Program-made: the position numbers and the translations under genes
Shown: piece by piece, positions 15,367 through 34,389 of the stretch
How the letters are laid out: each line of letters opens with the position of its first letter
Position numbering within the stretch: the first letter of the stretch is position 1
Notes under the pieces: generated by a model
The model's input: the letters and a program-made list of their open reading frames with translations, nothing else
What the model was told of the DNA's origin: nothing
Databases searched by the model: none
Assembly: GCA_007125845.1 (NCBI GenBank)
Contig: SLCK01000035.1
Span: 1 to 64,000, forward strand
DNA from: Gemmatimonadota bacterium
Lineage (GTDB): Bacteria; Gemmatimonadota; Gemmatimonadetes; Longimicrobiales; Gaopeijiaceae
Length of the DNA: 64,000 nt
Direction of reading: 5' to 3'

Positions 15367-15741
15367 ATGGACAGGAAAGGTTTCACCCTCATCGAGCTGC
15401 TGATCGTGGTGGTGATCATCGGCATCCTGGCCGCGATTGCGATCCCGAGGTTCGGCGAGACGCGAGAGCGGGCTTACACCTCCTCGATGCAGTCCGATCT
15501 GAACCAGCTCCGGACGGCGATGGAGATGTGTCTGCAGGACAACACCGAGAACCCGTTCGAGTACACGGGCTGCGACGAGTCGCTCATCAACCCGAGCCAG
15601 GGCGTGACCGTTGACGTGACGGTGGGCGATGGCGGCACGAGCTATACTGCGACGGCCAATCACAACGGCACGAGCTGGGGCTGTTCGTACGATTCCGAGG
15701 AAGGCGTGATCCAGTGTGACGAGGCCGGTCCACCGAGCTGA
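15367..15741 (+). CDS. pilA: Major type IVa pilin
   Basis: Structural subunit of the pilus. The 124-residue prepilin has a four-residue leader before the cleavage site MDRKG|FTLIELLIVVVI, with Glu at mature position 5, and a canonical N-terminal helix. Four cysteines (55, 69, 106, 117) could form two disulfides, the second closing a C-terminal D-loop. The globular part is short, as in small delta-proteobacterial-type pilins. The ATG at 15367 has AGGAAGGA seven nt upstream; the open frame from 14998 is an artefact. A strong hairpin directly follows, and the prepilin peptidase gene is at 58958. Confidence 0.95.
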   Translation: MDRKGFTLIELLIVVVIIGILAAIAIPRFGETRERAYTSSMQSDLNQLRTAMEMCLQDNTENPFEYTGCDESLINPSQGVTVDVTVGDGGTSYTATANHNGTSWGCSYDSEEGVIQCDEAGPPS

Positions 15742-15801
15742 TGACGCTGGACGTTTCGAGAGGAACGAAGTCCCGTGACGATGGGATATCGGGAGCGGTC
15801 G

Positions 15802-15833
15802 GGGGTGGGGCGCAGGGTATCGCGCCCCACCCC
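15802..15833 (+). terminator. Strong hairpin after pilA
   Basis: A perfect 12-bp stem: GGGGTGGGGCGC (15802-15813) pairs with GCGCCCCACCCC (15822-15833) around an 8-nt loop. It begins 60 nt after the pilin stop. No T-run follows, so it may be a Rho-assisted terminator, a partial attenuator, or a 3' stabiliser that keeps pilin mRNA more abundant than the kinase mRNA behind it. Confidence 0.7.
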
Positions 15834-15881
15834 GTCGCGGCTTCCCTGCGGCGGTCGGCCAAAGGCCGAGCGGGTGGACTG

Positions 15882-17183
15882 ATGGCCAAATTTCGTCGCA
15901 TGTCGCTTCGCAGGGAATTCCTCCTCTCGATGGCGGCGTTGATGCTGGGAGCGATGTTGGTCGTCGTGGCTGCTGTGCTGGTCGCGCTCCCCCTGCTGAC
16001 CTCACCTGCGCAGGTGGCCCTCTTCATTGCCGTCATTGTGGTTGCGGATCTGGCGGTACTCTTCATCTTCTTGCGCGACTTTCTCCAGAGGGCGCTGTTC
16101 GGGCCCCTGGAGGCGATCGGGAAGCATGCCGAAAGCATCGCGGGGGGAGCGTACGAGCACCGGATCCCGCAGGAAGGCGTCCAGGAGCTGGACCGGCTCA
16201 TCGTGAGCCTGAATACGATGGCCGAGCGACTGATCTCCGATCAGGAGGCGCTGGCCGAGAACGTCCAATCCCTGGATCGGACGAATCAGGAGTTGGTCGA
16301 GACGACCGAGGAGTTGGTGCGAGCGGCCCGCCTGGCCTCGGTGGGAACGCTCGCGGCTGGACTCGCCCACGAGGTGGGCAATCCACTTAGCGCGCTCATG
16401 GGCTACCTCGATTTCGCGGCGAGCAAGGCGCGCGAAGGGAAGGATCCGACGACGCTCCTGGACGAGGCCGTAGAGGAGGCGCATCGGATCAATCGGATCA
16501 TCAAGAGCGTGCTCGAGTTTGCACGACCGGACGTCCGCCAGGAAGGACAGGAGAATGGAGCGGCGGGCGGGGATGGCGGGAGGGGACGCCCGCTGGTGTC
16601 GATTACCGCCGCCGTGGATCGGGCGATCACTTTGCTGGAGGGGAGAGGCGCGCTGAACGGGATTCAGATCCATCGGCAAGAAGAGACGGAAGGCTTGGCG
16701 GTGCAGGCGCTCCCTCAACATGTCGAGCAGGTACTCCTGAACCTGCTCATGAATGCGATCCGGGCGGTGGAGGACCAGGACGAGCCCTGGGTACGGATTC
16801 GCCTGGGGAGCGCTCCGGCACCCCCGCGAACCATGGGGGTCCGCCGGGCCGAGGACCCTCCGGGGGTCGACTACTCGCACCGGCGGAGGCTTCCGAGGTT
16901 GCTGTCGGGCAAGGCCACGAGGCGGCATTCGGGAAGGGACGTCGTTGTGGCGATCGAGGACAACGGTGCTGGTGTCACCGCGGACGAAGCGGCTCGACTC
17001 TTCGATCCCTTCTACACAACCCGCCAGCCGGGAGAGGGGACGGGGATGGGCCTGGCGATCACGGCGCGCATCGTCGAGGAGCTGGGGGGTGAGGTGGGAG
17101 TGGAAAACCGGGAGGAGGGGGGGGCGCGCTTCACAGTTCGGTTGCCAGAGGCAGAGACTCTCGCCGGAGAAGCGATAGAATGA
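15882..17183 (+). CDS. NtrB/AtoS-like membrane sensor histidine kinase
   Basis: A 433-residue kinase with two membrane helices near the N-terminus (about 10-65) and almost no periplasmic loop, then a HAMP-like linker (PLEAIGKHAESIAGGAYEHR), a coiled coil (about 105-150), the H-box LAAGLAHEVGNPLSALMGYL (His about 165) and an HATPase domain (N box LLNLLMNAIRAVEDQ, G1 IEDNGAGVT, FDPFYTT, G2 GTGMGLAIT). The short sensor part suggests intramembrane or cytoplasmic sensing. The ATG at 15882 was chosen because the open frame back to 15741 runs through the pilA hairpin and has no membrane character. Its stop overlaps the ATG of the regulator, so the two form a pair. Confidence 0.88.
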   Translation: MAKFRRMSLRREFLLSMAALMLGAMLVVVAAVLVALPLLTSPAQVALFIAVIVVADLAVLFIFLRDFLQRALFGPLEAIGKHAESIAGGAYEHRIPQEGVQELDRLIVSLNTMAERLISDQEALAENVQSLDRTNQELVETTEELVRAARLASVGTLAAGLAHEVGNPLSALMGYLDFAASKAREGKDPTTLLDEAVEEAHRINRIIKSVLEFARPDVRQEGQENGAAGGDGGRGRPLVSITAAVDRAITLLEGRGALNGIQIHRQEETEGLAVQALPQHVEQVLLNLLMNAIRAVEDQDEPWVRIRLGSAPAPPRTMGVRRAEDPPGVDYSHRRRLPRLLSGKATRRHSGRDVVVAIEDNGAGVTADEAARLFDPFYTTRQPGEGTGMGLAITARIVEELGGEVGVENREEGGARFTVRLPEAETLAGEAIE

Positions 17184-18607
17184 AGATCATGAAGATCCTC
17201 GTCATAGATGACGACGACGGCCTCCGACGCTCGCTCGACCTGATCCTCGACGACGCGGGCTACGAGATCGTCTCGGCCGAGAACGCCGAGGAAGGTCTCG
17301 CGAAGGCGGCCGCGCACGACCCTGACCTCGTAATGGTCGACCTCCGGATGCCCGGATTGGACGGCCTCGGATTCCTCGAGCGCTACCGGGAGACCAAGGG
17401 GACGGCTCCGGTGATCCTCATGACGGCCTACGGGTCGACCGACCTCGCGATCCAGGCGGTGCGCCAGGGCGCGGCCGATTTCCTGCCCAAGCCGTTCGGG
17501 GCGAGCGAGCTCCTCATGGCGCTCAAGAAAGTAGAGGAGCGCGAGCGGATACTCAGGGGTGGGTCGGTTCGGGGAGAGGGGGGAGGTGAGGATGACGGGT
17601 CCGAAGGGGTCAGGGAGACCCAGCCGGACGGAGAGGTTGAAGAGATCGTGGCCCGGTCGCCCGGTATGGTCCGGGCCCTGGAGGTGGCTACGAGGGTCGC
17701 CCGTCACTCCACGAGCGTCCTTCTTACCGGTCCCACCGGCACCGGAAAGGAGCTCTTCGCCCGCCTCATCCACCGGGAGAGCGACCGGGCTGGGCAGCCC
17801 TTCATCCCCGTGAACTGTGGGGCGATTCCCGAAGGCCTTCTCGAGTCCGAATTCTTCGGTCACATGAAGGGAGCGTTCTCCGGTGCGGAGTCCGATCGAG
17901 AAGGCCTCTTCGAGGCGGCCGACGGCGGAACTCTCTTCCTGGATGAGGTCGGAGAGCTACCGGAGGCGCTCCAGGTGAAGCTCCTCCGTGTGCTCCAGGA
18001 AGGGGAGGTCCGGCGCCTGGGTGACACGCGAACCCGAGACGTGGACGTGCGCGTCGTCGCGGCCACCAACCGCTCCCTCGAACAGGAAGTGCAGGAGGGA
18101 CGGTTCCGGGAGGATCTCTTCTACCGCATCGCCGTGTTGACGGTGGACCTGCCGCCTCTGCGGGAGCGATTGGAGGACGTGCCCCACCTCATCCGGTACC
18201 TCTTCGAGCGTCACCGGAAGCGACTTGGGGTGCAGGTGGAGGACGTGGCTCCGGAGACGATGGATGTGCTCAAGTCCTATCCCTGGCCCGGGAACGTGCG
18301 GGAGCTCGAGAACGTCCTGGAGAGGGCGCTGGTCCTGGCCGACGGACCCCGGGTACGGCCGGAGGATCTGCCGCCCATGGTGCGCTCGCCCGCGCTCCGG
18401 AGAGAGTCGATCTCGGAGAGAGCGGCAACCGACGATCCCTCCTCCGATCTCTCCGTCAAGCGCCGTGGAGCCGAGCTCGAGAAGGAGCTGATCAAGGCCG
18501 CATTGGAGCGGACCGGAGGGCACCGGGGGAACGCGGCCCGCCTCCTGGACCTGAGCGATCGTGCTCTGCGCTACAAGATTCAGGAGTACGAGTTGGAAGC
18601 CGACTGA
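17180..18607 (+). CDS. Sigma-54-dependent response regulator, NtrC type
   Basis: A 475-residue regulator. The receiver (about 4-120) has DDDD, Asp in MVDLRMPG and Lys in LPKPF. The AAA+ domain (about 155-390) has Walker A GPTGTGKE and Walker [13 protein letters not shown]; the sigma-contact loop is GAFSGA, a Thr-to-Ser change from GAFTGA. A Fis HTH ends it ([20 protein letters not shown]). A charged linker (about 125-155) separates receiver and ATPase. It overlaps the kinase gene by 4 nt and is followed 43 nt later by the first minor-pilin gene, so it may control the pseudopilin genes. Confidence 0.9.
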
Positions 18608-21389: not shown

Positions 21390-21468
21390 TTGAGAGTCGG
21401 GAGAGACGGTCTGCACGCCGCCGGAGGCGGCCGGGCCCCGTCGAGCTTGCGTGACCGGAGGCTCCGCA

Positions 21469-21930
21469 ATGGAGTGTCGAAGGGGGTTCACGATCCTGGA
21501 ACTGGTGATCGTGCTCGGCATCGGCGCGCTCGTCGCTGGGATTGCGATCGCCGGATTCGGTGGAATCCAGGCGCGCCTGGGCGTTCGCGCTGCCGAGGCA
21601 CGCTTTCTCTCGATGCACGGGCAGACGAGGGCCCTCGCGGTGGAGCGGGGCCGGGCAGTGCGCTTGAGCGTGAACCCGGAGACCGGGGTGGTCCGGATCG
21701 AGGAGGGATGCGCCGGCGACGGTCCCGAGATCGATGCGCGTGACTTCGGGGCGATTCACGCGGTGACGATCGAGACCGGAGTCGGAGTCCTGTGGCTCTG
21801 TATGACCCCGAGGGGGTTCGCGGACATCGGGGCGAACTCCTTTTCACAGGAGGCGCGGGTGAGCTTCGTGCGCGGGGACCGCTCCGCAACCGTCGTCCTC
21901 CTTCCGCTCGGACAGGCGGTGGCTCCGTGA
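21469..21930 (+). CDS. Minor pilin, set 2, FimT/GspH-like
   Basis: A 153-residue prepilin-like protein: MECRRG|FTILELVIVLGIGALVA, Glu at mature position 5, then a GspH/FimT-type beta-rich body (LGVRAAEARFLSMHGQTRALAVERGRAVRL partly quoted from this region) with two Cys (GCAGDG, LWLCM). The ATG at 21469 has GGAGG seven nt upstream. It opens a second four-gene set with overlapping starts, after a 215-nt gap that carries the sigma-54 candidate. Confidence 0.85.
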   Translation: MECRRGFTILELVIVLGIGALVAGIAIAGFGGIQARLGVRAAEARFLSMHGQTRALAVERGRAVRLSVNPETGVVRIEEGCAGDGPEIDARDFGAIHAVTIETGVGVLWLCMTPRGFADIGANSFSQEARVSFVRGDRSATVVLLPLGQAVAP

Positions 21931-22307
21931 TGCTGAATCGATCCGGGCTGACCCTCATCGAGCTCATCGTCGCCATGCTCGTGCTTGCGGTGGGCATTCT
22001 GGGATTGGCGGCCGGAACGGGGTGGATCATCCGGACGGTCGATGTGGCTCGTGTCGACACCATGCGGGGCGCCGCAGTGCAAGCCGCGATGGAAGAGGTG
22101 AGATCGATCCCCTTCGAGACCTTGGGGAGCGGACAGACCCTTCAGGGTCAGTTCGAGGTGTCGTGGTCGCTGCGGGCGGAGGACGTGAGGTGGAAGCAGG
22201 TCGAAGTGGTGGTGGTCGGGCCGGGCCGTGCGCCGGGGAGCGTTGGCGCGGCGCCCGTCATCACCGCGGCCGTGGCCGACACCTTCGACTACCTGGTGAG
22301 CCGATGA
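21930..22307 (+). CDS. Minor pilin, set 2, PilV/GspI-like
   Basis: A 125-residue prepilin-like protein: MLNRSG|LTLIELIVAMLVLAVG, followed by the PilV-type VQAAMEEVRSIPF stretch. The ATG shares its A with the preceding TGA stop. Short but complete; the frame further upstream is not used. Confidence 0.85.
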   Translation: MLNRSGLTLIELIVAMLVLAVGILGLAAGTGWIIRTVDVARVDTMRGAAVQAAMEEVRSIPFETLGSGQTLQGQFEVSWSLRAEDVRWKQVEVVVVGPGRAPGSVGAAPVITAAVADTFDYLVSR

Positions 22308-23149
22308 CACGCCGGTGCACGAGCGTTGCGGACGGAACCCGGTGTGAGGGGGCCGGAGGATTCACGCTCGTGGAGCTCCTGGTTGCCATCGTGATCGCGG
22401 CCGTGCTGATGGCCGCCGTCTACCAGGTTATGGTGAGCAATCAACGAGTGTCGTCTGTGCAAAGGGAGCAGGTCCGGAGCCAGCAGACGGTCCGGGCCGG
22501 ACTCACCGTTCTGGCGCAGGAGCTCCGCGAGGTGAGTGCCGCGGGTGGAGACCTGCTCGTCATCGAGCCCACCAGGGTGGGCTTCCGTGCCTTCAGGGGA
22601 TACGGGATCGTCTGCGACGTCGGGTCGATCTCCTCGCGCTCGGTCACGGTGGCTCCGCTGGGCCGAGATCTTCAGTCGGAGGACGGGCTCTACGTGTTCG
22701 CCGACGGGAATTCTGGGATCGAGGCCGACGACCAGTGGCTGCTCACCGCCGTCAGCTCGGCTCAGGCGGACCATACCTGCGGGTCGGGAGATTCCGAGCT
22801 GACTGCGCAACTGATCGCTCTGGGAGGGCTCTCCGATGCCCAGTTCGCCGCCATTCAGGGCGGTGCGGCGGTCCGCGCGTGGGAGGCGGTCGAGTACGGG
22901 CTCCAGGAGTTTGAGGACGGGTGGTACCTCGTGCGTGACCTGGAAGGAGAGACGGCCCGCCTTGTGGGCCCGCTCGCGGGGGGAGATGGCCTCGAGCTGG
23001 AGTACCTCGCCGTTGACGGAAGCTCGGCCTCCGATCCCGGCGATGTCGCCCGGGTGCGGATCACCCTCCGGACAGACCCCCCGGCGCGGGATGAATGGGG
23101 GCACACGGTAGGCGACACCTTGACCACCGCCGTCTACCTCCGGAACTGA
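22304..23149 (+). CDS. Minor pilin, set 2, PilW/GspJ-like
   Basis: A 281-residue prepilin-like protein: leader to GAGG|FTLVELLVAIVIAAVL, Glu at mature position 5. The PilW-type LTVLAQELREVSAAGGD motif is clear. The body has two Cys (IVCDVG, HTCGSG) and ends RITLRTDPPARDEWG...LTTAVYLRN, as PilW homologues do. ATG overlaps the previous stop. Confidence 0.87.
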   Translation: MTRRCTSVADGTRCEGAGGFTLVELLVAIVIAAVLMAAVYQVMVSNQRVSSVQREQVRSQQTVRAGLTVLAQELREVSAAGGDLLVIEPTRVGFRAFRGYGIVCDVGSISSRSVTVAPLGRDLQSEDGLYVFADGNSGIEADDQWLLTAVSSAQADHTCGSGDSELTAQLIALGGLSDAQFAAIQGGAAVRAWEAVEYGLQEFEDGWYLVRDLEGETARLVGPLAGGDGLELEYLAVDGSSASDPGDVARVRITLRTDPPARDEWGHTVGDTLTTAVYLRN

Positions 23150-23184
23150 CCAGCGAAGTCGCCCGAAGGGGCGAAGGAGCTACA

Positions 23185-24363
23185 ATGCTCACATCGATCA
23201 GAGCGACCCAGGGAATCGGAGGAGACCAGCGGGGATTTGCGCTGCCGGCCGCGATCCTCGGGCTGGTCGTGGTGGGTGTGCTCATCACGGGCGGGATCCA
23301 GGTCGCACTCCAGGAGTCGAGAATCGGTGAGGCCACGGAGCGTGCCGGTCTCGCCTTCTACGTGGCCGAGAGCGGGCTGCACAGTGTGCTCGGAACCTGG
23401 AACGCGGGAGCGTCGGGAGCCACCGTCTGGGGCGATCCCGTGACGGTCTCGGGGTCCAACGTCCATGGGGACTGGACGTCCGACATTCGGCGGGTCGGCG
23501 ACCGACTCTACTTCATCCGGACCCGGGGGGAGGTGCCTTCCCGCGAGGTCCCGGCGAATCGAACGGTGGGTGTGCTGGCGCGTCTCGCCACCGCGAACAT
23601 CAACCCCCCCGCGGCCCTCACCATCCAGGGAGGAGTACATGCTCAGGGGGCTCCGCGGAAGGTGGACGGCAGCGACCAGATCCCCGCCCTCTGGACGAGC
23701 GAGATGTGTCCGTCTCCCCTGACTCCGATGCCGGGAGTGATGACCGACGACGCCTCCGAGGTGACGGCCAGTCCCTGGCCCTCCGGCGCCGAGTGCCCGA
23801 ACCAGTACGTGGGCAGCCCGTGCATCCAGGAGGACGTGGAGACGGTGCAGCAGCAGATGAGCGAGATGGACGAGATGTGGGACGAGCTCGTCACCCTCGC
23901 CACAAAGACCGTGACCGGGAGCACCGTCGAGCCGTTCCCGAGCTACACCACCGACGGAGCCTGCAACACAGCGGATCCCAACAATTGGGGCAATCCCGAA
24001 CCCTCCTCCCCGGACGATCCGTGTCGCGACTACTACCCTGTCGTGCACGTGACGGGGAACGTCTCCATGGGCGGGAGCGCCCTCGGGCAGGGCGTCCTCC
24101 TCGTCGAGGGAAACCTGGAGATGCACGGGAACGCCCACTTCAGTGGAATCATCCTCGTCCAGGGCGAGTTCTCGGCGGCTTCGGGAACGCCCAAGGTGAC
24201 CGGAGCGGTCTCGGCGAAGTCGGCGAGCACGCTGTCCGGGACCCCGAACATCGACTACTCGAGCTGTGCGGTCACGCGGTCCCTGGAGTTGAGCGAAACC
24301 CTGTCTCGTCTGGAGCCTCTCCCCGAGCGGAGCTGGGTGGACCTCACGGGGGCCTCATTCTGA
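23185..24363 (+). CDS. PilX-like protein, set 2, with Gly-rich repeat C-terminus
   Basis: A 392-residue protein with a PilX N-terminal-type segment (QRGFALPAAILGLVVVGVL) and the PilX signature AFYVAESGLHSVL. Six cysteines are spread over the body. The C-terminal region (about 290-365) has a Gly/hydrophobic repeat (VVHVTGNVSMGGS, GVLLVEGNLEMHGN, GIILVQGEFSAAS) like that of the set 1 protein at 20339. The ATG at 23185 has AAGGAG seven nt upstream; the earlier in-frame ATG lies inside the previous gene. Last gene before the pilM promoter. Confidence 0.8.
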   Translation: MLTSIRATQGIGGDQRGFALPAAILGLVVVGVLITGGIQVALQESRIGEATERAGLAFYVAESGLHSVLGTWNAGASGATVWGDPVTVSGSNVHGDWTSDIRRVGDRLYFIRTRGEVPSREVPANRTVGVLARLATANINPPAALTIQGGVHAQGAPRKVDGSDQIPALWTSEMCPSPLTPMPGVMTDDASEVTASPWPSGAECPNQYVGSPCIQEDVETVQQQMSEMDEMWDELVTLATKTVTGSTVEPFPSYTTDGACNTADPNNWGNPEPSSPDDPCRDYYPVVHVTGNVSMGGSALGQGVLLVEGNLEMHGNAHFSGIILVQGEFSAASGTPKVTGAVSAKSASTLSGTPNIDYSSCAVTRSLELSETLSRLEPLPERSWVDLTGASF

Positions 24364-24478: not shown

Positions 24479-25516
24479 ATGGCCCTCTTCGGGCAGAAGA
24501 AGAGTTCCGTCGGGCTCGATATCGGCAGCGGTTTCATCAAGTTGATCGAGGTGGACCACTCGGGCGACCAGCCTGAGGTCGTGCGCGTGGCGATGCGAGC
24601 TCTCCTGCCCGACGCGATCGTCGAGGGGGAAATCATGGATCCCGGGCTCGTAGGGGACACCATCCGCGAGCTCGTGGAGGCCGCGGGGCTCCGGCACAAG
24701 CGTGTCGTGACGGCGGTCGGCGGTCACGACGTCATCATCAAGAAGATCGAGATGGACCGGATGGTCGAATCGGACGCCCGGGAAGTCATTCGCTGGGAAG
24801 CCGAGCAGCACGTGCCCTTCGACATCAAGAGCGTGGAGCTGGATTTCCAGGTGCTCGATCCAGATGGGGACGGAGCCCAGATGCAGGTGCTCCTGGTGGC
24901 GGCCAAGCGCGAGCTCGTGGAGAACAAGGTCGCCGTGCTTACCGGGGCTGGCCTGGAAGCGTCCCTGATCGACGTGGACGCCTTCGCCCTCCACAACGCC
25001 TTCGAGCACAACCATCCGGAGGCGATGGAAGGCATTGTGACCCTCGTGAACGTGGGCCACGAGATGACGAACGTGAACCTCCTCGACGATGGAGTGCCCA
25101 TTCTGACCAGGGACATCCCATTCGGGTCTCGCAAGATCCGGGAACGGCTCCAGAGGGAGCGGGGAATGACGACCGAGGCCGCGGAGGAGGTCGTCCAGGG
25201 CCGGACCGAGTTGGACGATCTGGACGAGATCGTGCGGGAGAGCGCCGAGGAAGTGGCGGTCGGGGTTGAACGTGGCGCCGCCTTCCTGATGACGCAGGAT
25301 CCAGGCTCGGGACTGGGCCGGATGTACCTCAGCGGGGGGGGAGCGCGCATTCCCGGGGTCGCGGAGGCCCTGGGGAGGCGGATGGGTGTCGAAACGCGGC
25401 TCGCGAATCCATTCGAGCGCGTTCCCGTTCGACCCGCGGCACCGTTGAACCTGATCCTGGACGAAGCGGGGCCGATGCTCCTGCTTCCCCTGGGGCTGGC
25501 GCTCCGGTCACCGTGA
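24479..25516 (+). CDS. pilM: Type IV pilus assembly protein PilM
   Basis: A 345-residue actin-like ATPase-fold protein that sits on the cytoplasmic side and binds the N-terminus of PilN. Evidence: GLDIGSGFIKLIEVD near the start, the FtsA/PilM motifs VVTAVGGHDVIIKKIEM and EVIRWEAEQHVPFDI, VNVGHEMTNVNLL, and LSGGGARIPGVAEALGRRMG near the end. First gene of the M-N-O-P-Q operon; its stop overlaps the pilN GTG (GTGA). Confidence 0.95.
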   Translation: MALFGQKKSSVGLDIGSGFIKLIEVDHSGDQPEVVRVAMRALLPDAIVEGEIMDPGLVGDTIRELVEAAGLRHKRVVTAVGGHDVIIKKIEMDRMVESDAREVIRWEAEQHVPFDIKSVELDFQVLDPDGDGAQMQVLLVAAKRELVENKVAVLTGAGLEASLIDVDAFALHNAFEHNHPEAMEGIVTLVNVGHEMTNVNLLDDGVPILTRDIPFGSRKIRERLQRERGMTTEAAEEVVQGRTELDDLDEIVRESAEEVAVGVERGAAFLMTQDPGSGLGRMYLSGGGARIPGVAEALGRRMGVETRLANPFERVPVRPAAPLNLILDEAGPMLLLPLGLALRSP

Positions 25517-26208
25517 TCGAGGTCAATCTTCTCCCCGGAGGCCGGAAGCGATCCGCTCGGCGTGTCTCCCTTTCGAAGCTCCTACCCAAGCTTCCGGGGT
25601 CGATGCCCCGGGTGGATCGCTGGACGGGCTATGCCGCCTTCGTCGGAGGCCTCTCGGTCCTCGCAATTGCCTGGCTCTTTCTCATGGTCGCCGGCCAGGC
25701 CGAAGAGCTCGAGGTGCAGATCGCGGTGGCAGCCGCGGATTCGGCCCGGTTCGCCGACCTGATCGAGCGCTCGGAGGCGCTCCAGGCGAGGAGGGATTCC
25801 ATCGCTCGCCGCGTGGAAATCATCCAGCAGATCGACGGGGACCGGTACGTCTGGCCGCACGTGATGGACGAGGTCGCCCGGGCACTGCCGGACTTCGCCT
25901 GGCTGCTCGGCCTGAGCCAGGTCTCCGGCACCGGGGGAGAGGTGGTCTTCCAGATCGACGGTGCGGCCGGTACCTACTTCGCGCTCACCACCTTCATGGA
26001 GAACCTCGAGGCTTCCCCCTTCATCCGGGGCGTCCGACTCGTCGCCTCCGATCAGACATCGATACCAGGGGGCGACGGTGCGGAACGCCTTATTCACCAG
26101 TTCGTCTTGCAGGCCGCGAAGCAAACGCCTCCCGCCGGCCTGGTCGAGACCGTTCCCCTGTTCGGTCCGTCGGTGTCGCCCCCGTCATCCGGAACCGGGG
26201 AGGAGTGA
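25513..26208 (+). CDS. pilN: Type IV pilus alignment protein PilN
   Basis: A 231-residue inner-membrane protein. The cytoplasmic tail begins MIEVNLLPGGRKR, which carries the INLLP-type motif bound by PilM; one membrane helix (about 40-60, FVGGLSVLAIAWLFLMV) and a periplasmic coiled coil plus ferredoxin-like domain follow. It links PilM to PilO. GTG start overlapped with pilM; 3 nt before pilO. Confidence 0.93.
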   Translation: MIEVNLLPGGRKRSARRVSLSKLLPKLPGSMPRVDRWTGYAAFVGGLSVLAIAWLFLMVAGQAEELEVQIAVAAADSARFADLIERSEALQARRDSIARRVEIIQQIDGDRYVWPHVMDEVARALPDFAWLLGLSQVSGTGGEVVFQIDGAAGTYFALTTFMENLEASPFIRGVRLVASDQTSIPGGDGAERLIHQFVLQAAKQTPPAGLVETVPLFGPSVSPPSSGTGEE

Positions 26209-26211
26209 TCG

Positions 26212-26820
26212 ATGGCCCTCATCCCCCAGGAACGGCACAAGCAGGTTGCCCTGGTCGTAGTCCTCGGCTCGCTCGCCGCCCTGTGGCTCTTTTACGACTA
26301 CTGGTACTCTCCGAGGGCCCTGGAAGTGGAGGCGCTCGAGGCCCGCCTGACGCAGTTGGAGCAGCAGAACCAGCAGGCACAGTTCCTGGCGGCTCGCGGA
26401 GGAGCGCGGCTCGAGGAGCGATTGGCGGTCTACGAGCGTCACGTGGTGAGGTTGGAGGAACTCATCCCTCGCAGCGAGGAGGTGCCGGCCCTCCTCAACT
26501 CGATGGCGATGGAGGCTCAACGCACTGGAGTGGATCTCGCATCGATGCGCCCGGAACCCGCGGCTGCCGGAGAATTCTATACGAGGCAGAGCTACCAGGT
26601 CTCGGTCGTCGGGGACTTCCACGACGTAGGCCGTTTCTTGACCGGGGTCGCGTCTCTTGCCCGGATCGTCACGCCCATCGGCCTCGATCTGGAACCCCAC
26701 ACGGGGCCGGCTCCGCGGGCGGAGATGGTCGCTCCGGTAATCGCCCGTTTCCGCATCGAAACGTACGTGCTTCCGGCGAATGGTCAGATCCCGGAGCTTC
26801 CCGAGGAGCTCGAGGGATGA
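26212..26820 (+). CDS. pilO: Type IV pilus alignment protein PilO
   Basis: A 202-residue inner-membrane protein with a membrane helix at about 12-30 (ALVVVLGSLAALWLFY), a coiled coil (about 38-80, EALEARLTQLEQQNQQ) and a periplasmic PilO domain (about 85-195, with YQVSVVGDFHDVGRFLTGVA). It pairs with PilN in the periplasmic alignment complex. A good ATG start 3 nt after pilN. Confidence 0.93.
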   Translation: MALIPQERHKQVALVVVLGSLAALWLFYDYWYSPRALEVEALEARLTQLEQQNQQAQFLAARGGARLEERLAVYERHVVRLEELIPRSEEVPALLNSMAMEAQRTGVDLASMRPEPAAAGEFYTRQSYQVSVVGDFHDVGRFLTGVASLARIVTPIGLDLEPHTGPAPRAEMVAPVIARFRIETYVLPANGQIPELPEELEG

Positions 26821-26836
26821 GCGTAGGGGGCGACCG

Positions 26837-27547
26837 ATGACGCGATTCGCGATCGGGGCGATCGGCCTCGGTGTCTGCCTGTTCGTGCTCCGGCTGGGGA
26901 CTCTGTTGGGAGAGCCCGAACCCTTCTCGGTGGGGGTTCAGGACGACTCCTCGGCGCAGGCGCCCGACACGGTCGACCTCGTTTTCGAGCGCGAGGTATT
27001 CAGCTACCCGACCTTCGAGCGGCGAAATCCATTCCGGCCGCTCACCGGTGCGGAATCAGGCCCGCGCTTCGAGGAGCTCGTGCTTCTCGGGATCATCTCC
27101 TCCGCGAACTCTGCCGGATCCGTAGCCCTCCTCGGCACCCGGGCTGGAGGGTCGGGGGGCGCGAGCACGTATCGCGTGAGGGAGGGAGAGAACCTCGGGA
27201 ACGTGAGAGTCCTGGAAATCCGGCCGCAGCAGCTCCTGGTTGCGGTTTCGGAGTTCGGAGTCACCGAGAATCGCACAATGGAGCTCCGGCGTGCGGAGCC
27301 CGGAGAACCGTCCCCGCTCCCGGGAGACGCGTCGGGAGGCGCCGAACCTCCGGGACTGCAGGAGGCTCCGGATGCCCCCGATCCGGAGGGGGATCCCGGG
27401 GCTGCGGACGAACCGCAGGACTTCCAGGATCCGGGGGATCAGGGCGGTCCGTCCGGAGAGGGAACGGGTGGGACGACGGAGGTCGAGGGAGCCCGAGGTG
27501 AGCTTCCTTCCTATCATCTGGCGCGCGGCTACGGAGGAAGTGCATGA
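26837..27547 (+). CDS. pilP: PilP-like pilus assembly protein
   Basis: A 236-residue protein with one N-terminal hydrophobic helix (about 4-22) and a PilP/GspC-type domain at about 55-135 (RNPFRPLTGAESGPRFEEL, LLGIISSANSAGSVALL, YRVREGENLGNVRVLEI). PilP normally is a lipoprotein joining PilN/PilO to the PilQ secretin; here no clear lipobox is seen, only VCLF within the helix. The C-terminal 90 residues are Pro/Gly/Asp-rich, probably disordered. ATG at 26837 has AGGGGG six nt upstream. Its stop overlaps pilQ. Confidence 0.85.
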   Translation: MTRFAIGAIGLGVCLFVLRLGTLLGEPEPFSVGVQDDSSAQAPDTVDLVFEREVFSYPTFERRNPFRPLTGAESGPRFEELVLLGIISSANSAGSVALLGTRAGGSGGASTYRVREGENLGNVRVLEIRPQQLLVAVSEFGVTENRTMELRRAEPGEPSPLPGDASGGAEPPGLQEAPDAPDPEGDPGAADEPQDFQDPGDQGGPSGEGTGGTTEVEGARGELPSYHLARGYGGSA

Positions 27548-29340
27548 GTGCCCTGACGGGGATATGGACTGCACTCGCGATCTCGACCCTCACGGGAAGC
27601 TCGGCCGTGGGTGGAGCCGACGGGGAGGTGACCGCCCTCCAGGTCCTTCCTTCCGCCGATCGCACGGAGGTCGTCATCGCCGTGGAGGGCAGCGTGGAAG
27701 TCCGGGACTTCACCATGGAAGGCCCGGATCGGATCGTGATCGACCTCCTCGGCGCTCGTTCCGCCCTCTCCGGAGAAGACTATCAGGAGGTGCAGCGGGG
27801 TGGCATCCAACGGGTCCGCGCGAGCCAGTATGCGGAGGACATCGTCCGGCTCGTGCTGGAAGTCGAAGTCGCGGCCGGCTACACCCTCCTCTCCGCCGAT
27901 GGGTACGTGCGGGTTTCGCTGGAGAACCCTGGCGGAGCGTTCGAGCCCTGGGAAGCCCTCAGGTCGGGCGGCACCGTCGGGCCACCGGATCGCGCGCCGG
28001 CCGCAACCCCCCCAAGCTCGGAGTCGACGGAGGCAGCCGTCTCGGTTCGTGTGCCTCGCTGGACAGGTATCGCGGCGTCGGACCTGGCCGAGCGGATCAC
28101 CGTCTCGTTCACCGACACGCCGATGCGGGACGTCCTCTTCACCTTCGCGGACTTCTCCAGCCGTTCCATCGTCCCGGGGTCCCAGGTGTCCGGGATCGTG
28201 AACGCCGAGATCCGGGACCAGCCCTGGGACATCGCACTGCAGGCGATCCTCGAATCGCATGGACTGGCCGCTCAGGAGGCGGCTTCCGGGATCATCCGGG
28301 TCGACCGTCTCGAGGATCTCACCGCCCGCGAGGACGTGGAACAGCTCACCACCAGGCCCTTCAGGGTGAACTACGCGAACGCCTCGGAGCTTCAAAGCTC
28401 GGTCGAGAGCCTGCTCAGCGACCGGGGCAGGATCTCCGTCAGCGGATCGACGAACTCCCTGGTGGTGACGGACATACCGAGGGTCCTGGACGCCGTGGAG
28501 GAGCTCGTGGAGGGGCTGGATCTCCAGACTCCCGAGATCACGATCTCGGCCCGGATCATCTTCGTGAACCGGACAGATCTCGCGGAGCTCGGCGTCACGT
28601 ACGACCTGAAGGACTCGCGAGGCAACCAGCTCAACACCCTGACTCCCGGTCAGACCGGAGACGCCGGTGCCGGCACGGACGAAACCGTGCCGGTGGGGAC
28701 GAACGTCGTCTCCCTTGGGGGCAACTCGATCGCCGCACTCGGAAACGCCAACTCTCGAGTGGTGAGTCCGTCTTTGCAGTTCCTCACCTCCCTCGTCCTC
28801 GGGCGCCACACCCTGATTAGCTTCGTCGAGGCGCTCGAATCCAGGAGCTTGAGCGAGGTGCAGGCTGCCCCGCAGGTCAGGGTGCTCGACAACCAGCAGG
28901 CGCGCATCCTGGTCGGGGAGCGCACCCCCATCCGGGTCATCGACGCCGCCGGCGGTGGGCCGGGACTCCAGGACGGCGCCTTCCCCCAGGCTACCGTGCA
29001 GATCGAGGAGACCGGGATTCTGCTCGAGGTCACGCCTCACGTCACCGCGGGCGACCTCATCCTGATGGAGCTCCGGGCTGAAAGGTCGGGACTCGAGATC
29101 CGGGAGGCGGACCTCGGGTTCGTCTTCAACACGCAGGAGGCCGTGACCCGGGTCCTCGTCGAAGACGGGGAAACGGTCGTCATCGGTGGCCTGACCGTCA
29201 CCGAGCGCGACGAGTTCCGGATTGGAATGCCCCTCCTCATGGAGCTCCCTCTCCTGGGCCGCTTCTTCCGGCATTCGCGCACGGACACCATCCAGCGAGA
29301 TCTCATGATTCTGGTCACCCCTCAGATCAACCGCCGCTGA
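27544..29340 (+). CDS. pilQ: Type IV pilus secretin PilQ
   Basis: A 598-residue outer-membrane secretin through which the pilus leaves the cell. Order: signal peptide (1-24), one AMIN domain (about 28-125, binds peptidoglycan), a Pro/Ala linker, an N0/STN domain (about 185-265, ITVSFTDTPMRDVLFTFADF), a secretin N domain (about 275-345) and the secretin domain (about 340-598) with VQAAPQVRVLDNQQARILVG-like core, TGILLEVTPHVT and VIGGLTVTERDE. PilQ often has two AMIN domains; only one is seen. ATG overlaps pilP (ATGA). Confidence 0.95.
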   Translation: MSALTGIWTALAISTLTGSSAVGGADGEVTALQVLPSADRTEVVIAVEGSVEVRDFTMEGPDRIVIDLLGARSALSGEDYQEVQRGGIQRVRASQYAEDIVRLVLEVEVAAGYTLLSADGYVRVSLENPGGAFEPWEALRSGGTVGPPDRAPAATPPSSESTEAAVSVRVPRWTGIAASDLAERITVSFTDTPMRDVLFTFADFSSRSIVPGSQVSGIVNAEIRDQPWDIALQAILESHGLAAQEAASGIIRVDRLEDLTAREDVEQLTTRPFRVNYANASELQSSVESLLSDRGRISVSGSTNSLVVTDIPRVLDAVEELVEGLDLQTPEITISARIIFVNRTDLAELGVTYDLKDSRGNQLNTLTPGQTGDAGAGTDETVPVGTNVVSLGGNSIAALGNANSRVVSPSLQFLTSLVLGRHTLISFVEALESRSLSEVQAAPQVRVLDNQQARILVGERTPIRVIDAAGGGPGLQDGAFPQATVQIEETGILLEVTPHVTAGDLILMELRAERSGLEIREADLGFVFNTQEAVTRVLVEDGETVVIGGLTVTERDEFRIGMPLLMELPLLGRFFRHSRTDTIQRDLMILVTPQINRR

Positions 29341-29361: not shown

Positions 29362-32300
29362 ATGACGAACCGACCGATGCGTCGAAGACTGCTCCTCTAC
29401 GGGCTCCTCACCGGACTCTTCGTGTGGGGCTGCGATGGGCACAACCTCTTCGGTCCCGGCGTCGGGGTCGGGCCCCAGATCTTGGACTTCAGGCTTCCCC
29501 CCTCGGTGGACTCGGGGGAGGACCTCGGGGTCGGGGTGCGCGTATCGGGTCTGACCGCCATCGATTCGATCATGGTCCGCGCCCAGGTGGGCGACTTCCT
29601 GGAGCGGGAGGTGTCTGTGCCGAGCTCCGGGGGCCAGGACGCGAACGAGGAGTTCGTCTTCCGGATTCCCGAGGTCATCACGGACACGATCGTCACTGTC
29701 TCGGTCCAGGCGGCGGACAACCACGGGAATCTGAGTCGCGTGGTGGAGGGGCAGTTGCGCGCTTTCGATCGAGCTCCGCCTTCGGTCCAGGTCTCCTTCT
29801 CACCCTCCGTTGTCGGTTTGGGCCATGGGATGGAGGTGACGGTGGAGTCCGAGGACAACATCGGGCTGGCCGAGGTGGGATTCCGCATCCTTTCTCAGGA
29901 CGGAGACACGATCACCGAAGGATCGGAGTCGGTGGCGGGACAGGCGGTGCAAACCGTCTTCCCCTACACGGTTCCCGAGGATCTCGAGCTGGCGGAGTAC
30001 ACGGTCGAAGGGTTCGCACGGGATCTGGAGGGCAACCGGAGCTCCACGGTCGCGTCCGAGGCGCTGACGATCGTCTTCATCGACGAGGAGCCGCCCATGG
30101 TCACGATCCTCCAGCCTGCCCCGAACGCCCAGATCATGATCGGCGTTCCGCTCGAGATGCGGTTCCGGGCGCAGGACAACGATGCGGTCCAGCACATTCG
30201 CATCGAGGGCGTCGCGCTCCGAGGAGACCCGGATCTGGGGACGGACCACGTCGTCGCCCGCTACGAGCCGTGGGACTTCGAACTGGTGGATCCGTCCGCC
30301 GATACCACGCTCACTCGCTTCCTGATTCCCATCGAGGAGGCCGAGGACGAGGAGCCGGTGGAGGAGGAGGTTGCGATCATCGTGACGGTGACCGACCGCC
30401 AGGGGAACGTGGGAGTCGATACGCTCCGCGTGCAGCTCACCGCCGACCCGCCGACGATCCAGATTCAGGAACCGACTGCCGGAAGTGGACTTCCCTTGGG
30501 GGATTCGGTCCTGGTCCGAGCGCACCTGCAAGACGCGGAAGGAATCGTGCGTGTCACGTACGATGGGGTCGCCCATCGGGGGGATCGCGACCTGGGCACG
30601 CACCAGATGGTCCAGCGGTTCCAGCCGCGTACGGTGGACTTCGATCCGCCGAAGACGGACACGACCCTGGTCCGTTACCTGCAACCGACGGGGGATCCGA
30701 TCTCGGAAGACATCTTCATCCGGGTCGTCGTTCGGGACGACCTCGGACAGGTGTCGCGGGACTCCGTGGCAGTCACGGTGGGTGGACCGAGCGTGGAGGT
30801 GCCCGATCTCGATACGGGGGACACCGTCGCGGGCGGCCAGACGATGCAGATTCGCGTCCTCGCGGCCGATCCCACCGGAGTCGAGCTTGTGGAGGTCCAG
30901 CTCTCGGGCGTACACGAGGAGACCTTGACCGAGAGCGCGTTCCCCGGCCAGGACCCCACCTCGGTCGAGGTCGTCTTCGACTTCACGGTACCGGAGGACG
31001 TGACGGGGACCCTCGAGCTCCGCGCGAGGGCCAGGAACGAAAGCGGAATCTATGGTCACGCCCCCGTCGTGGCGCTGCAGGTCGTGGATGAGGCGGAGCT
31101 CGATACCACTCCCCCCGAGGTCCGCATCCTCGTGGAGCCGCAGGGAGCCTCCGGAGATCCGAGCCGCGTCGAGACGTCGGACCCGATCCGGGTGAGCGTG
31201 AGCGCGCGAGACAACAGCGGCGGGACCGGCATTCGGAGAGCGGGGTACACGGTCCGGGCCGTGCGTCGTCACGACCCCGCCGACACCCTCTGGGTCAGCC
31301 AGGTTCACGAGACGGCGCAGGGCGTGGGGAGCACGGTGACCCGGGTCTTCGATCCCACGATGCTGTCGCACTTCCAGGACTCCGGCGGCGAACCCTTCTA
31401 CGATCCGGCGAACCGCCCCGACACCCTCGATCTGGACTTCTTCGGCTGGGCCGAAGACGCGGCGATCGACGCAGACGAGCAACCGGCTCCGAACTGCGCG
31501 GCCGCGGTCTCCGCGGATGCCTTCCAGCAACTCACCTGCGAGACGATCTCGGTCGGACCGGATCAACTCACGGTTGCGGAGAGCGAGGACGGACAACGAA
31601 TCACGGTCGCGGTGGTGTCGGGCCGCACCGTGCTCCTGCGGGACGGAGGGTCGATCGCCGACGCGGTGGTGCACGACGACGAGCGGCTTCTCATCCTGTC
31701 GAACATCGGCCTGAACCGCCTGGAGCTCTTCGATCTGCGTCCTGAAGTCCTGGATTTCCGCGAGAACACGATCGCGGTCGGCTCCCAGCCATGGGGCCTC
31801 ACCTTCGACCACGCGACCCAGGACATCCTCTATGTGGCGAACTCGGGTGCGACGAACATCTCACAGGTGGACGTCGTCTCCGAGACCGAGGTAGACCGGA
31901 TCTCGACGCCCAACACGATACTGTGGGAGGTCGAGCAGGACGGGCCCACCTTCAACCGGACCTTCTTCGACTTCTCGGACCGACCGCAATTCATCGCTCA
32001 GGACTCCGAGGGGTGGTTCGTGTTCTCGACCCGACCCACCGGCACCGCGCCCGACGGCACGATCCGACTCGGGGAGTTCCTTGGCCCCGACATGGCGGTT
32101 CGCCTCGTCACCGATCACAGCCTCCTCCTCGACGTGGATCCCGGTGAGGATCGTTGGGCGATCGCGCAGGTGGACTTCATGCGCACGGAGAACGTCCCGG
32201 GGATCGTGGCTGAGACGCACCTGCCAGGAGACATGGGCGATATCCGGGAATCGGCGGTTCACGACGGATTCGAGGCCCCGAGGGCGGCTGTGGAGGACCT

Positions 32301-33012
32301 GCGCGGGCAGCTCGCGGGATCGGTGCACGATCTCTTCCTTCCCGAGGTGTCGAGGGGTGGATGGGACGTGGAGGCCGTCGGTCTTTCGGACACCACCTTC
32401 ATCGCCCACTCCCAGGATCGGAGCGCGGTGGTCGTCGGCGAGGGGGCCACGGCGCCCACCGGCCGGATCTTCTACTGGCGGGCGGCGGAGAAGTCATTCA
32501 CCCGGGTCACCACCGTGAGCGACCTGACGGGGAACGTGAGCGAACGCGTCCTCGGGGTGGCGTCGAATCAGGACGGGCAACTCAGCGTCGGCCGGGGGCT
32601 CTTCGCGACGTACTTCTTCAACCCCTTGCTGGGTCTGGAAGGGGAGATCCCGATCCAGCCGGGTGGCGGTGGAGTGGCGCTTCATCCGCTCCATTCGGGC
32701 GGTCCCCTCGACGCCTCGCCGGAGGTGAGCCTCGCCTTCGTTCCGGTGGGAGAGGGAACCATCGAGATTCACGGCACGCGCAACTTCCAACTGCTTGGAC
32801 GTGCGTACATCCGCGACACGATGGTCGGTCCGGTCCGGGCAACCCTGCCCTTCGCGGGCGAGAACGATGCCGCGTGCGGGCCGGCCCCGGTGAACTTCCT
32901 CGATCCGGCTGTCCCCGACGACTGCATCGTGGTGAAGCTTTCGGGGCCGACCGAGGCCGGGGGGGTGCTGGTCGTGGACATTACGAAGGCCGATGTTCTG
33001 CGGGAGCAGTAG
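29362..33012 (+). CDS. Large predicted surface lipoprotein, Ig-like repeats plus propeller-like region
   Basis: A 1216-residue exported protein I cannot assign to a named family. The N-terminus has a signal sequence with lipobox FVWGC (Cys 24). Residues 35-620 are a chain of Ig-like beta-sandwich units (for example DRAPPSVQVSFSPSVVG, EEPPMVTILQPAPNAQIM, DTTPPEVRILVEP); two adjacent units share a module with GVAxRGDxDLGT and TTLxRxL at nt 30196-30330 and 30544-30690. Residues about 720-1200 look like a YncE-type beta-propeller (IAVGSQPWGLTFDHATQDIL, then YVANSGATNISQVDV). It starts 22 nt after pilQ and is the last gene of the run. Possible pilus-associated adhesin; that role is inference. Confidence 0.75.
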   Translation: MTNRPMRRRLLLYGLLTGLFVWGCDGHNLFGPGVGVGPQILDFRLPPSVDSGEDLGVGVRVSGLTAIDSIMVRAQVGDFLEREVSVPSSGGQDANEEFVFRIPEVITDTIVTVSVQAADNHGNLSRVVEGQLRAFDRAPPSVQVSFSPSVVGLGHGMEVTVESEDNIGLAEVGFRILSQDGDTITEGSESVAGQAVQTVFPYTVPEDLELAEYTVEGFARDLEGNRSSTVASEALTIVFIDEEPPMVTILQPAPNAQIMIGVPLEMRFRAQDNDAVQHIRIEGVALRGDPDLGTDHVVARYEPWDFELVDPSADTTLTRFLIPIEEAEDEEPVEEEVAIIVTVTDRQGNVGVDTLRVQLTADPPTIQIQEPTAGSGLPLGDSVLVRAHLQDAEGIVRVTYDGVAHRGDRDLGTHQMVQRFQPRTVDFDPPKTDTTLVRYLQPTGDPISEDIFIRVVVRDDLGQVSRDSVAVTVGGPSVEVPDLDTGDTVAGGQTMQIRVLAADPTGVELVEVQLSGVHEETLTESAFPGQDPTSVEVVFDFTVPEDVTGTLELRARARNESGIYGHAPVVALQVVDEAELDTTPPEVRILVEPQGASGDPSRVETSDPIRVSVSARDNSGGTGIRRAGYTVRAVRRHDPADTLWVSQVHETAQGVGSTVTRVFDPTMLSHFQDSGGEPFYDPANRPDTLDLDFFGWAEDAAIDADEQPAPNCAAAVSADAFQQLTCETISVGPDQLTVAESEDGQRITVAVVSGRTVLLRDGGSIADAVVHDDERLLILSNIGLNRLELFDLRPEVLDFRENTIAVGSQPWGLTFDHATQDILYVANSGATNISQVDVVSETEVDRISTPNTILWEVEQDGPTFNRTFFDFSDRPQFIAQDSEGWFVFSTRPTGTAPDGTIRLGEFLGPDMAVRLVTDHSLLLDVDPGEDRWAIAQVDFMRTENVPGIVAETHLPGDMGDIRESAVHDGFEAPRAAVEDLRGQLAGSVHDLFLPEVSRGGWDVEAVGLSDTTFIAHSQDRSAVVVGEGATAPTGRIFYWRAAEKSFTRVTTVSDLTGNVSERVLGVASNQDGQLSVGRGLFATYFFNPLLGLEGEIPIQPGGGGVALHPLHSGGPLDASPEVSLAFVPVGEGTIEIHGTRNFQLLGRAYIRDTMVGPVRATLPFAGENDAACGPAPVNFLDPAVPDDCIVVKLSGPTEAGGVLVVDITKADVLREQ

Positions 33013-33168
33013 CGGCGCTCCTCCAGCCGCCTGGCCCCCGGCTTCGTGCTCCGGGCGAGGGCACCGGCGATGCCCGGTCTGGACACGCTCCGGACCGGGC
33101 GTCACCTTACGGGGCTTCGATGGCGGTCCCATGTCCGGACTCCGGCTCAGCCTCCTCCCCACAAATCC

Positions 33169-34389
33169 ATGACGCTCCTCCGCACCCTCTCCTTCCGCAC
33201 CGCCGGGGAATCCCACGGCAGGGCGCTGACGGCCCTGATCGAGGGAATCCCGGCAGGACTCTCCCTCGAGATGGATCGGGACGTGGATCCGGAGCTCTTG
33301 CGCCGGCAGGGGGGGTACGGACGTGGCAGGCGCATGCAGATCGAGTCGGATCGCGCGGATCTGCTCTCCGGGGTGCGTCTTGGAGAGACCCTGGGTTCGC
33401 CGATCAGCATGCTGATCCACAATCGAGACTGGGAGAACTGGACCACGGCGATGAGCCCGCTCCCTCCCGACCCGGACGAGAATCCGAAGGCCCTGCGCCC
33501 GATGTACCTTCCTCGTCCAGGGCACGCCGATCTGGTCGGGGTCCTCAAGTACGATCGGCGCGACACGCGGGACATTCTCGAGCGGGCGAGCGCGAGGGAA
33601 ACGGCCGCCCGGGTGGCGTGTGCCGCTGTGGCTCGGCGCCTCCTCGCCGAGTTCGGCATCCAGGTGGGGAGCTACGTCCGATCGATCGGGGATGTGGAGG
33701 CCCGGCCCATCGAGTCCCTGCCGGAAGATCTGAACGCGGCTGCGGACGCCTCCCCCGTGCGGACTCTCGACGAGGAAGCTGGCGAGCGAATGATGCGGGC
33801 GATCGACCACGCGAAGGAGGTCGGCGACACCCTCGGAGGAGTGTTCGAGGTCGTGGCGACCGGGCTGCCCGTCGGGCTGGGTAGCCACGTGACCTGGGAC
33901 CGGAAGCTCGACGGACGGCTGGCGGGAGCGATGATGTCGATCCAGGCGATCAAGGGCGTCGAGATCGGCCTCGGCTTCGAGGGAGCCCGACGCCTCGGCT
34001 CGCGCGTCCACGATCCGATCGTCCGGGACGACGTGGCGGACCGAGCCGGAGGTTTCGCCCGCTCGTCGAATGGCGCGGGGGGCCTGGAGGGTGGCGTCAC
34101 GACCGGAGAGCCCCTGGTGGTGCGTGGAGCGATGAAGCCCATTTCGACTCTTCTCAAGCGGAGACTTCCCTCGGTCGATCTCAGGGATGGGAGCGTTCAC
34201 GAGGCTGCCACCGAGCGAAGCGACGTATGCGCGGTGCCCGCGGCCGCGGTGGTCGGGGAGGCGATGGTAGCGCTCGTCCTCGCGGACGCCTTTCTCGAGA
34301 AGTTCGGGGGGGATTCCCTGACCGAGATGCGCCGGAACTTCGACGGGTACCTCGCGTACCTGTCCGAGCGAGGCTGGGGGGAGCGCTAA
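33169..34389 (+). CDS. aroC: Chorismate synthase
   Basis: Last step of the shikimate pathway: EPSP to chorismate, using reduced FMN. A 406-residue protein with all family signatures: FRTAGESHGRALTALIEGIP, QGGYGRGRRM, GETLGSPISMLIHNRDW, the RPGHADLVGVLKYDRRD motif and ARETAARVA, and DVCAVPAAAVVGEAMVALVL near the C-terminus. The ATG at 33169 gives the usual short N-terminus, though no good ribosome site precedes it. The next gene, aroK, starts 8 nt later and works two steps earlier in the pathway. Confidence 0.96.
   Translation: MTLLRTLSFRTAGESHGRALTALIEGIPAGLSLEMDRDVDPELLRRQGGYGRGRRMQIESDRADLLSGVRLGETLGSPISMLIHNRDWENWTTAMSPLPPDPDENPKALRPMYLPRPGHADLVGVLKYDRRDTRDILERASARETAARVACAAVARRLLAEFGIQVGSYVRSIGDVEARPIESLPEDLNAAADASPVRTLDEEAGERMMRAIDHAKEVGDTLGGVFEVVATGLPVGLGSHVTWDRKLDGRLAGAMMSIQAIKGVEIGLGFEGARRLGSRVHDPIVRDDVADRAGGFARSSNGAGGLEGGVTTGEPLVVRGAMKPISTLLKRRLPSVDLRDGSVHEAATERSDVCAVPAAAVVGEAMVALVLADAFLEKFGGDSLTEMRRNFDGYLAYLSERGWGER

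Follow-up and report, generated by a model that had tools for sequence, protein, structure and literature searches.

A β-propeller lipoprotein family encoded beside the pilus secretin gene pilQ in Gemmatimonadota

In the 64,000-nucleotide stretch of Gemmatimonadota DNA analysed here (the window), the secretin gene pilQ is followed by a gene for a large predicted lipoprotein in which a string of Ig-like domains precedes a C-terminal β-propeller (Table 1). As far as the libraries searched show, the protein belongs to a real, phylum-wide and undescribed family of pilus-linked lipoproteins, and the open-access literature searched yielded no account of a comparable protein encoded beside pilQ. What is new is the combination and the place of domains that are themselves known. 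We tentatively propose, with confidence a little short of even, that the protein is a lineage-specific type IVa pilus accessory, anchored in the outer membrane and holding an outward binding head near the PilQ portal.

Table 1. Positions in the window of the lipoprotein gene, its parts and its neighbours.
Feature	Position	Strand	Basis
Minor-pilin cluster: FimT/GspH-like, PilV-like, PilW-like, PilX-like	21451..24363	+	Pfam, NCBIfam
pilM, pilN, pilO (Pfam), pilP (position)	24479..27547	+	directly precede pilQ
pilQ secretin (AMIN, Secretin_N, Secretin)	27544..29340	+	Pfam
1216-aa lipoprotein gene: signal peptide, ~six Ig-like domains, propeller	29362..33012	+	sequence, Pfam, profile match, AF2
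Predicted lipoprotein signal peptide (residues 1-23) and lipidation Cys24	29362..29433	+	sequence; lipobox pattern in 70/76 relatives
Ig-like modules 1-2 (residues ~35-240)	29464..30081	+	AF2 model
Ig-like modules 3-4, two Big_7-type ~118-aa units (241-362, 360-478)	30082..30795	+	Pfam, AF2
Ig-like modules 5-6 (residues ~479-733)	30796..31560	+	AF2 model
YVTN/YncE-type β-propeller head (residues ~734-1216)	31561..33009	+	profile, AF2, Foldseek
aroC, constant downstream neighbour	33046..34389	+	synteny

The reading frame opens with ATG and has no internal stops. It begins 21 nt after the pilQ stop codon, and this gap contains a GGAGG Shine–Dalgarno-like sequence; the preliminary description was right about the adjacency to pilQ but gave the distance as 22 nt. 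A chance reading frame is excluded because frame and position are conserved in dozens of genomes. The signal peptide, MTNRPMRRRLLLYGLLTGLFVWGC, has a basic and then hydrophobic start followed by Cys24, and the lipobox pattern is matched by 70 of the 76 relatives with a complete start, with the atypical feature here of a Trp at −2. Signal peptide and lipobox cysteine together mark the product as a bacterial lipoprotein, predicted to be lipidated at Cys24, in agreement with the 1,216-residue lipoprotein described earlier.

Pfam confirms pilM, pilN, pilO and pilQ, and pilP, which has no Pfam match, is identified from its position and from synteny. Elsewhere in the genome are genes for PilB and two PilT-family ATPases, all above NCBIfam cut-offs, and the organism therefore has a type IVa pilus system that includes genes for retraction. 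The lipoprotein gene had been taken to end the pilMNOPQ operon, a claim that the downstream side does not bear out: aroC follows on the same strand after ~156 nt, using the conserved aroC start, and no terminator-like site was seen between the two genes. Upstream of the pilin cluster, at 15741–18607, lie genes for a histidine kinase and a sigma-54-type response regulator (PilS/PilR-like).

An AlphaFold2 (AF2) model of the full mature protein shows about six β-sandwich modules followed by a propeller (pLDDT 88, pTM 0.61); the pTM makes the relative placement of the domains uncertain, and the limits of the Ig modules are taken from the strand list of this model. The only Ig domain that Pfam recognizes in the protein is Big_7 (1.6e-10). 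Each of the two Big_7-type units contains a long extended β-hairpin in the model. An RGD stands at the end of the long hairpin strand in both units (residues 287–289 and 406–408; 30220–30228 and 30577–30585), within a conserved RG[DN]xxLGT motif; this RGD is probably structural. Cys712 and Cys726, in the stretch of modules 5–6, are invariant across an 18-row alignment.

Modelled separately, residues 700–1216, which include the head, reach pLDDT 91 and pTM 0.86, and Foldseek searches with this model return β-propellers throughout the top matches, including Escherichia coli YncE (3vgz; TM 0.66–0.68 on the target). With a family profile built from 71 relatives, the YVTN propeller of the archaeal S-layer protein 1l0q is matched at 1.2e-24. 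Neither a direct search of solved structures with the full-length sequence nor NCBIfam gave a match. Repeat sequence and predicted fold thus both place the head among the YVTN/YncE-type β-propellers, which supports the initial reading of several Ig-like units and a YncE-like propeller. The head resembles 1l0q and YncE in propeller fold and YVTN-like repeat sequence. By contrast with these proteins, it is fused to a lipid-anchored Ig stalk and tied to pilQ, whereas YncE is a free-standing propeller and the 1l0q propeller is paired with a PKD domain.

The stalk varies more than the head. Pil-locus proteins range from 600 to 1,348 aa, relatives have 0–4 detectable Big_7-type units, and the region of modules 1–2 is absent from about half of the relatives (alignment occupancy 0.35–0.48). 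In three relatives, conservation is higher in the propeller than in the stalk (86 versus 78%, 60 versus 45% and 61 versus 46%). This pattern is what would be expected of a spacer that carries a functional head. A variable string of Big-type domains serving as a stalk is also found in Ig-repeat surface adhesins, from which this protein differs in its lipid anchor, its propeller head and its strict linkage to the pilus secretin. We also considered, and rejected, kinship with alpha-2-macroglobulin, which would have a thioester motif and a matching architecture. The best Foldseek matches of the full model reach a TM of only ~0.12, the cysteines of the protein are confined to positions 24, 712, 726, 1172 and 1188, and the Pfam A2M match is below cut-off.

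A scan of genome contigs that used sequence alone recovered 80 loci of the family, and the record titles name Gemmatimonadota or a member of the phylum in all but one. The exception, L138, is titled Candidatus Kuenenia stuttgartiensis yet contains a Gemmatimonadota pil–lipoprotein–aroC cluster, and is likely a mislabelled or contaminated MAG. The co-occurrence with pilQ that the preliminary description asked about extends across the phylum: pilQ is directly upstream in 68 of the 80 loci, with a median gap of 38.5 nt, and 5 others begin at a contig end and keep the downstream genes. In an even sample of 249 genomes of the phylum, the family profile matches 148 and PilM is above cut-off in 234. 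Strong family matches (E below about 1e-33) occur in 101 genomes, and the place of pilM is listed for 74 of these; in 62 of the 74 the lipoprotein gene lies 0–15 kb downstream of pilM on the same contig and strand. Among the other 12, two strong matches (G018 and G029) are off-operon paralogues in genomes that carry a separate N-terminal or short copy at the pil locus, and split contigs account for at least some of the remainder, since pilQ stands beside the gene in G028 and G036.

Conservation of the locus continues beyond the lipoprotein gene, in the order aroC, aroK, topA, trmFO, xer, hslV. Because this synteny with the housekeeping genes aroC, aroK and topA is equally strong, position alone is not proof of a function in the pilus. 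The protein might thus be an unrelated surface or envelope lipoprotein that stays in place because gene order across the entire pil–aroC block is fixed in the phylum. We regard this as improbable. The existence of copies away from the pil genes would fit it, but such paralogues are rare, the spacing to pilQ is short and on the same strand, the slot between pilQ and aroC is kept across gene losses and shortening, and three relatives without a pilQ match (G003, G006 and G015) have no match to the lipoprotein family either.

Only 7 of the 80 loci are off-operon copies (L099, L102, L104, L107, L108, L110 and L116). They form one clade (support 91/92) nested among the pil-locus copies in a midpoint-rooted tree, for which a single duplication from the pil locus to another site would be the simplest account. 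Orthologues away from pil genes, which the preliminary description held would speak against a pilus link, therefore exist within this nested clade and not otherwise. An exported protein of 228–265 aa is encoded directly after six of the seven copies, and no such neighbour was seen at L102. The same gene follows off-operon copies in G016, G018 and G022, and likewise at L021, L032 and L051. The one neighbour scanned gave no Pfam match; judged from its sequence, the protein is probably a small outer-membrane β-barrel, suggesting that the paralogue is paired with a second probable outer-membrane partner.

The family is not kept everywhere. Some relatives have an Ig-only version of 148–553 aa between pilQ and aroC, and in several genomes aroC is directly 3′ of pilQ. 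We inspected 18 readable PilM-positive genomes that had no strong match to the family. In 15 of them aroC comes directly after pilQ, and PilY1 is undetected there too. The remaining three comprise one 159-aa stub, one divergent full-length copy and one Big_1-rich lipoprotein-like reading frame in an outer class. Tolerance of loss and shortening in this slot indicates that the core of the machine can do without the protein, an optional rather than essential component of the pilus. Comparison of gene presence with pilin-cluster type shows that prepilins upstream of pilM also occur in genomes that lack the lipoprotein gene. At L181 (G039, outer class), pilQ is followed by a lipoprotein-like reading frame that differs from this family, is rich in Big_1 domains and is cut by the contig end; it is possibly an analogous occupant of the slot.

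In type IVa pili, PilY1 is counted among the components of the priming and tip complex. Like the protein studied here, PilY1/PilC (PF05567) is a large exported protein with a C-terminal β-propeller that is encoded among type IVa pilus genes. The preliminary description had noted the absence of PilY1, and this is borne out: PF05567 has no match in this genome and matches only 1 of the 249 phylum genomes (G233), with PilY1 undetected in the other 248. The G233 match is a genuine PilY1 and serves as the positive control of the PF05567 search, although a very divergent PilY1 could escape detection; used as a query against the 249 genomes, it matches itself only. This rarity is consistent with a 2026 study that reports some PilY1.3-type homologues in Gemmatimonadota (PMC13190605). 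The sole PilY1 among the 249 genomes (L161, G233:C22) may reflect horizontal transfer or contamination.

The lipoprotein is itself not a PilY1. Its 1,216 residues contain no PF05567 match, and an hhalign profile comparison with the G233 PilY1 gives a probability of 0.3%, so that its propeller belongs to a different family. It has a lipobox, and an Ig stalk where PilY1 has variable N-terminal domains. Its gene follows pilQ here and in relatives, apart from the minor pilins, whereas the PilY1 gene sits within the minor-pilin cluster (pilV/W/X/fimU; PMC13190605). The protein also contains no PilY1-type or EF-like calcium motif, a comparison to be read knowing that the calcium-binding motif of the PilY1 propeller is not universal (PMC13190605).

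That the protein is a functional counterpart of PilY1 had also been suggested; it would then act at the pilus tip or in priming. The lack of detectable PilY1 in a genome with minor pilins and PilT-family ATPases would leave room for such a protein, and both proteins end in a propeller. The idea is weakened by the lipid anchor, by the gene position and by the lineages that lack both proteins: an N-terminal anchor is hard to square with a place on an extending pilus tip, and many genomes keep pilMNOPQ with neither this gene nor detectable PilY1. The large PilX-like prepilin offers another candidate for the tip adhesin. Taken with the hhalign result, this makes a PilY1 counterpart distinctly improbable, and we favour the other suggestion of the preliminary description, a putative outer-membrane partner of PilQ.

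The PilX-like prepilin, encoded at 23095–24363, is unusually large (~390–420 aa in relatives). It has a sub-threshold match to an ice-binding-like adhesive domain (PF20597, 1.7e-3). The match is seen in the two closest genomes, also at L081, and is absent from eight more distant relatives.

Accessory proteins of the type IVa pilus secretin are known in the pilotins (PilF/PilW/Tgl), which are outer-membrane lipoproteins, and in TsaP. The protein described here is far larger and has an Ig and propeller architecture unlike either. A pilotin would be a small TPR lipoprotein; here Pfam finds no TPR match and the model of the 1,216-aa chain is almost all β. Nor does Pfam find the LysM peptidoglycan-binding domain of TsaP.

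The membrane that carries the anchor bears on a further possibility, a periplasm-facing partner of PilQ that acts as an envelope rod, anchored in either membrane, and stabilizes, positions or gates the secretin. In E. coli, Asp or Glu at +2 directs inner-membrane retention. Such a residue is present in 45 of 70 family copies, which argues against outer-membrane anchoring if the E. coli rule applies; in one relative, 4 of 24 candidate lipoproteins have Asp in this position, a rough count from a small sample. A rod would also fit the position directly after pilQ and the conservation of the protein, which in the closest relative (L081) is about that of PilQ (81 versus 83%), and a string of about six Ig modules could be long enough to cross the periplasm. 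Against this, many genomes have pilMNOPQ and no such gene, the length of the stalk is more variable than a fixed periplasmic width suggests, and the paralogue works away from pilQ. We consider a periplasmic rod unlikely, while giving it appreciable weight.

Outer-membrane anchoring and outward orientation are favoured because the stalk varies in length, the core does without the protein and the paralogue apparently has another outer-membrane partner. In the proposed accessory role, the protein would be exported, lipidated at Cys24 and most likely anchored in the outer membrane. The Ig-like domains would make up the stalk, which varies in length, and the propeller would be the conserved binding head, most likely placed beside the PilQ portal, possibly in contact with PilQ, and facing outward. 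The head may bind a surface, a polymer or a partner protein, giving the protein an adhesin or receptor role alongside pilus extension and retraction. A bolder and unlikely extension of this proposal is that, in a phylum dispensing with PilY1, an outer-membrane lipoprotein at the PilQ portal, and not the pilus tip, bears the adhesive or gating head of the pilus system.

Gemmatimonadota genomes encode the type IVa pilus machine but hardly any PilY1, although that protein is held to belong to the complex that primes and tips such pili. A pilQ-linked lipoprotein that many lineages keep and many have dropped is a candidate for tuning attachment or managing the pilus portal. Family members also occur in records titled Gemmatimonas (L132, L144 and L159), a genus with cultured strains, and the family is therefore open to experimental testing.
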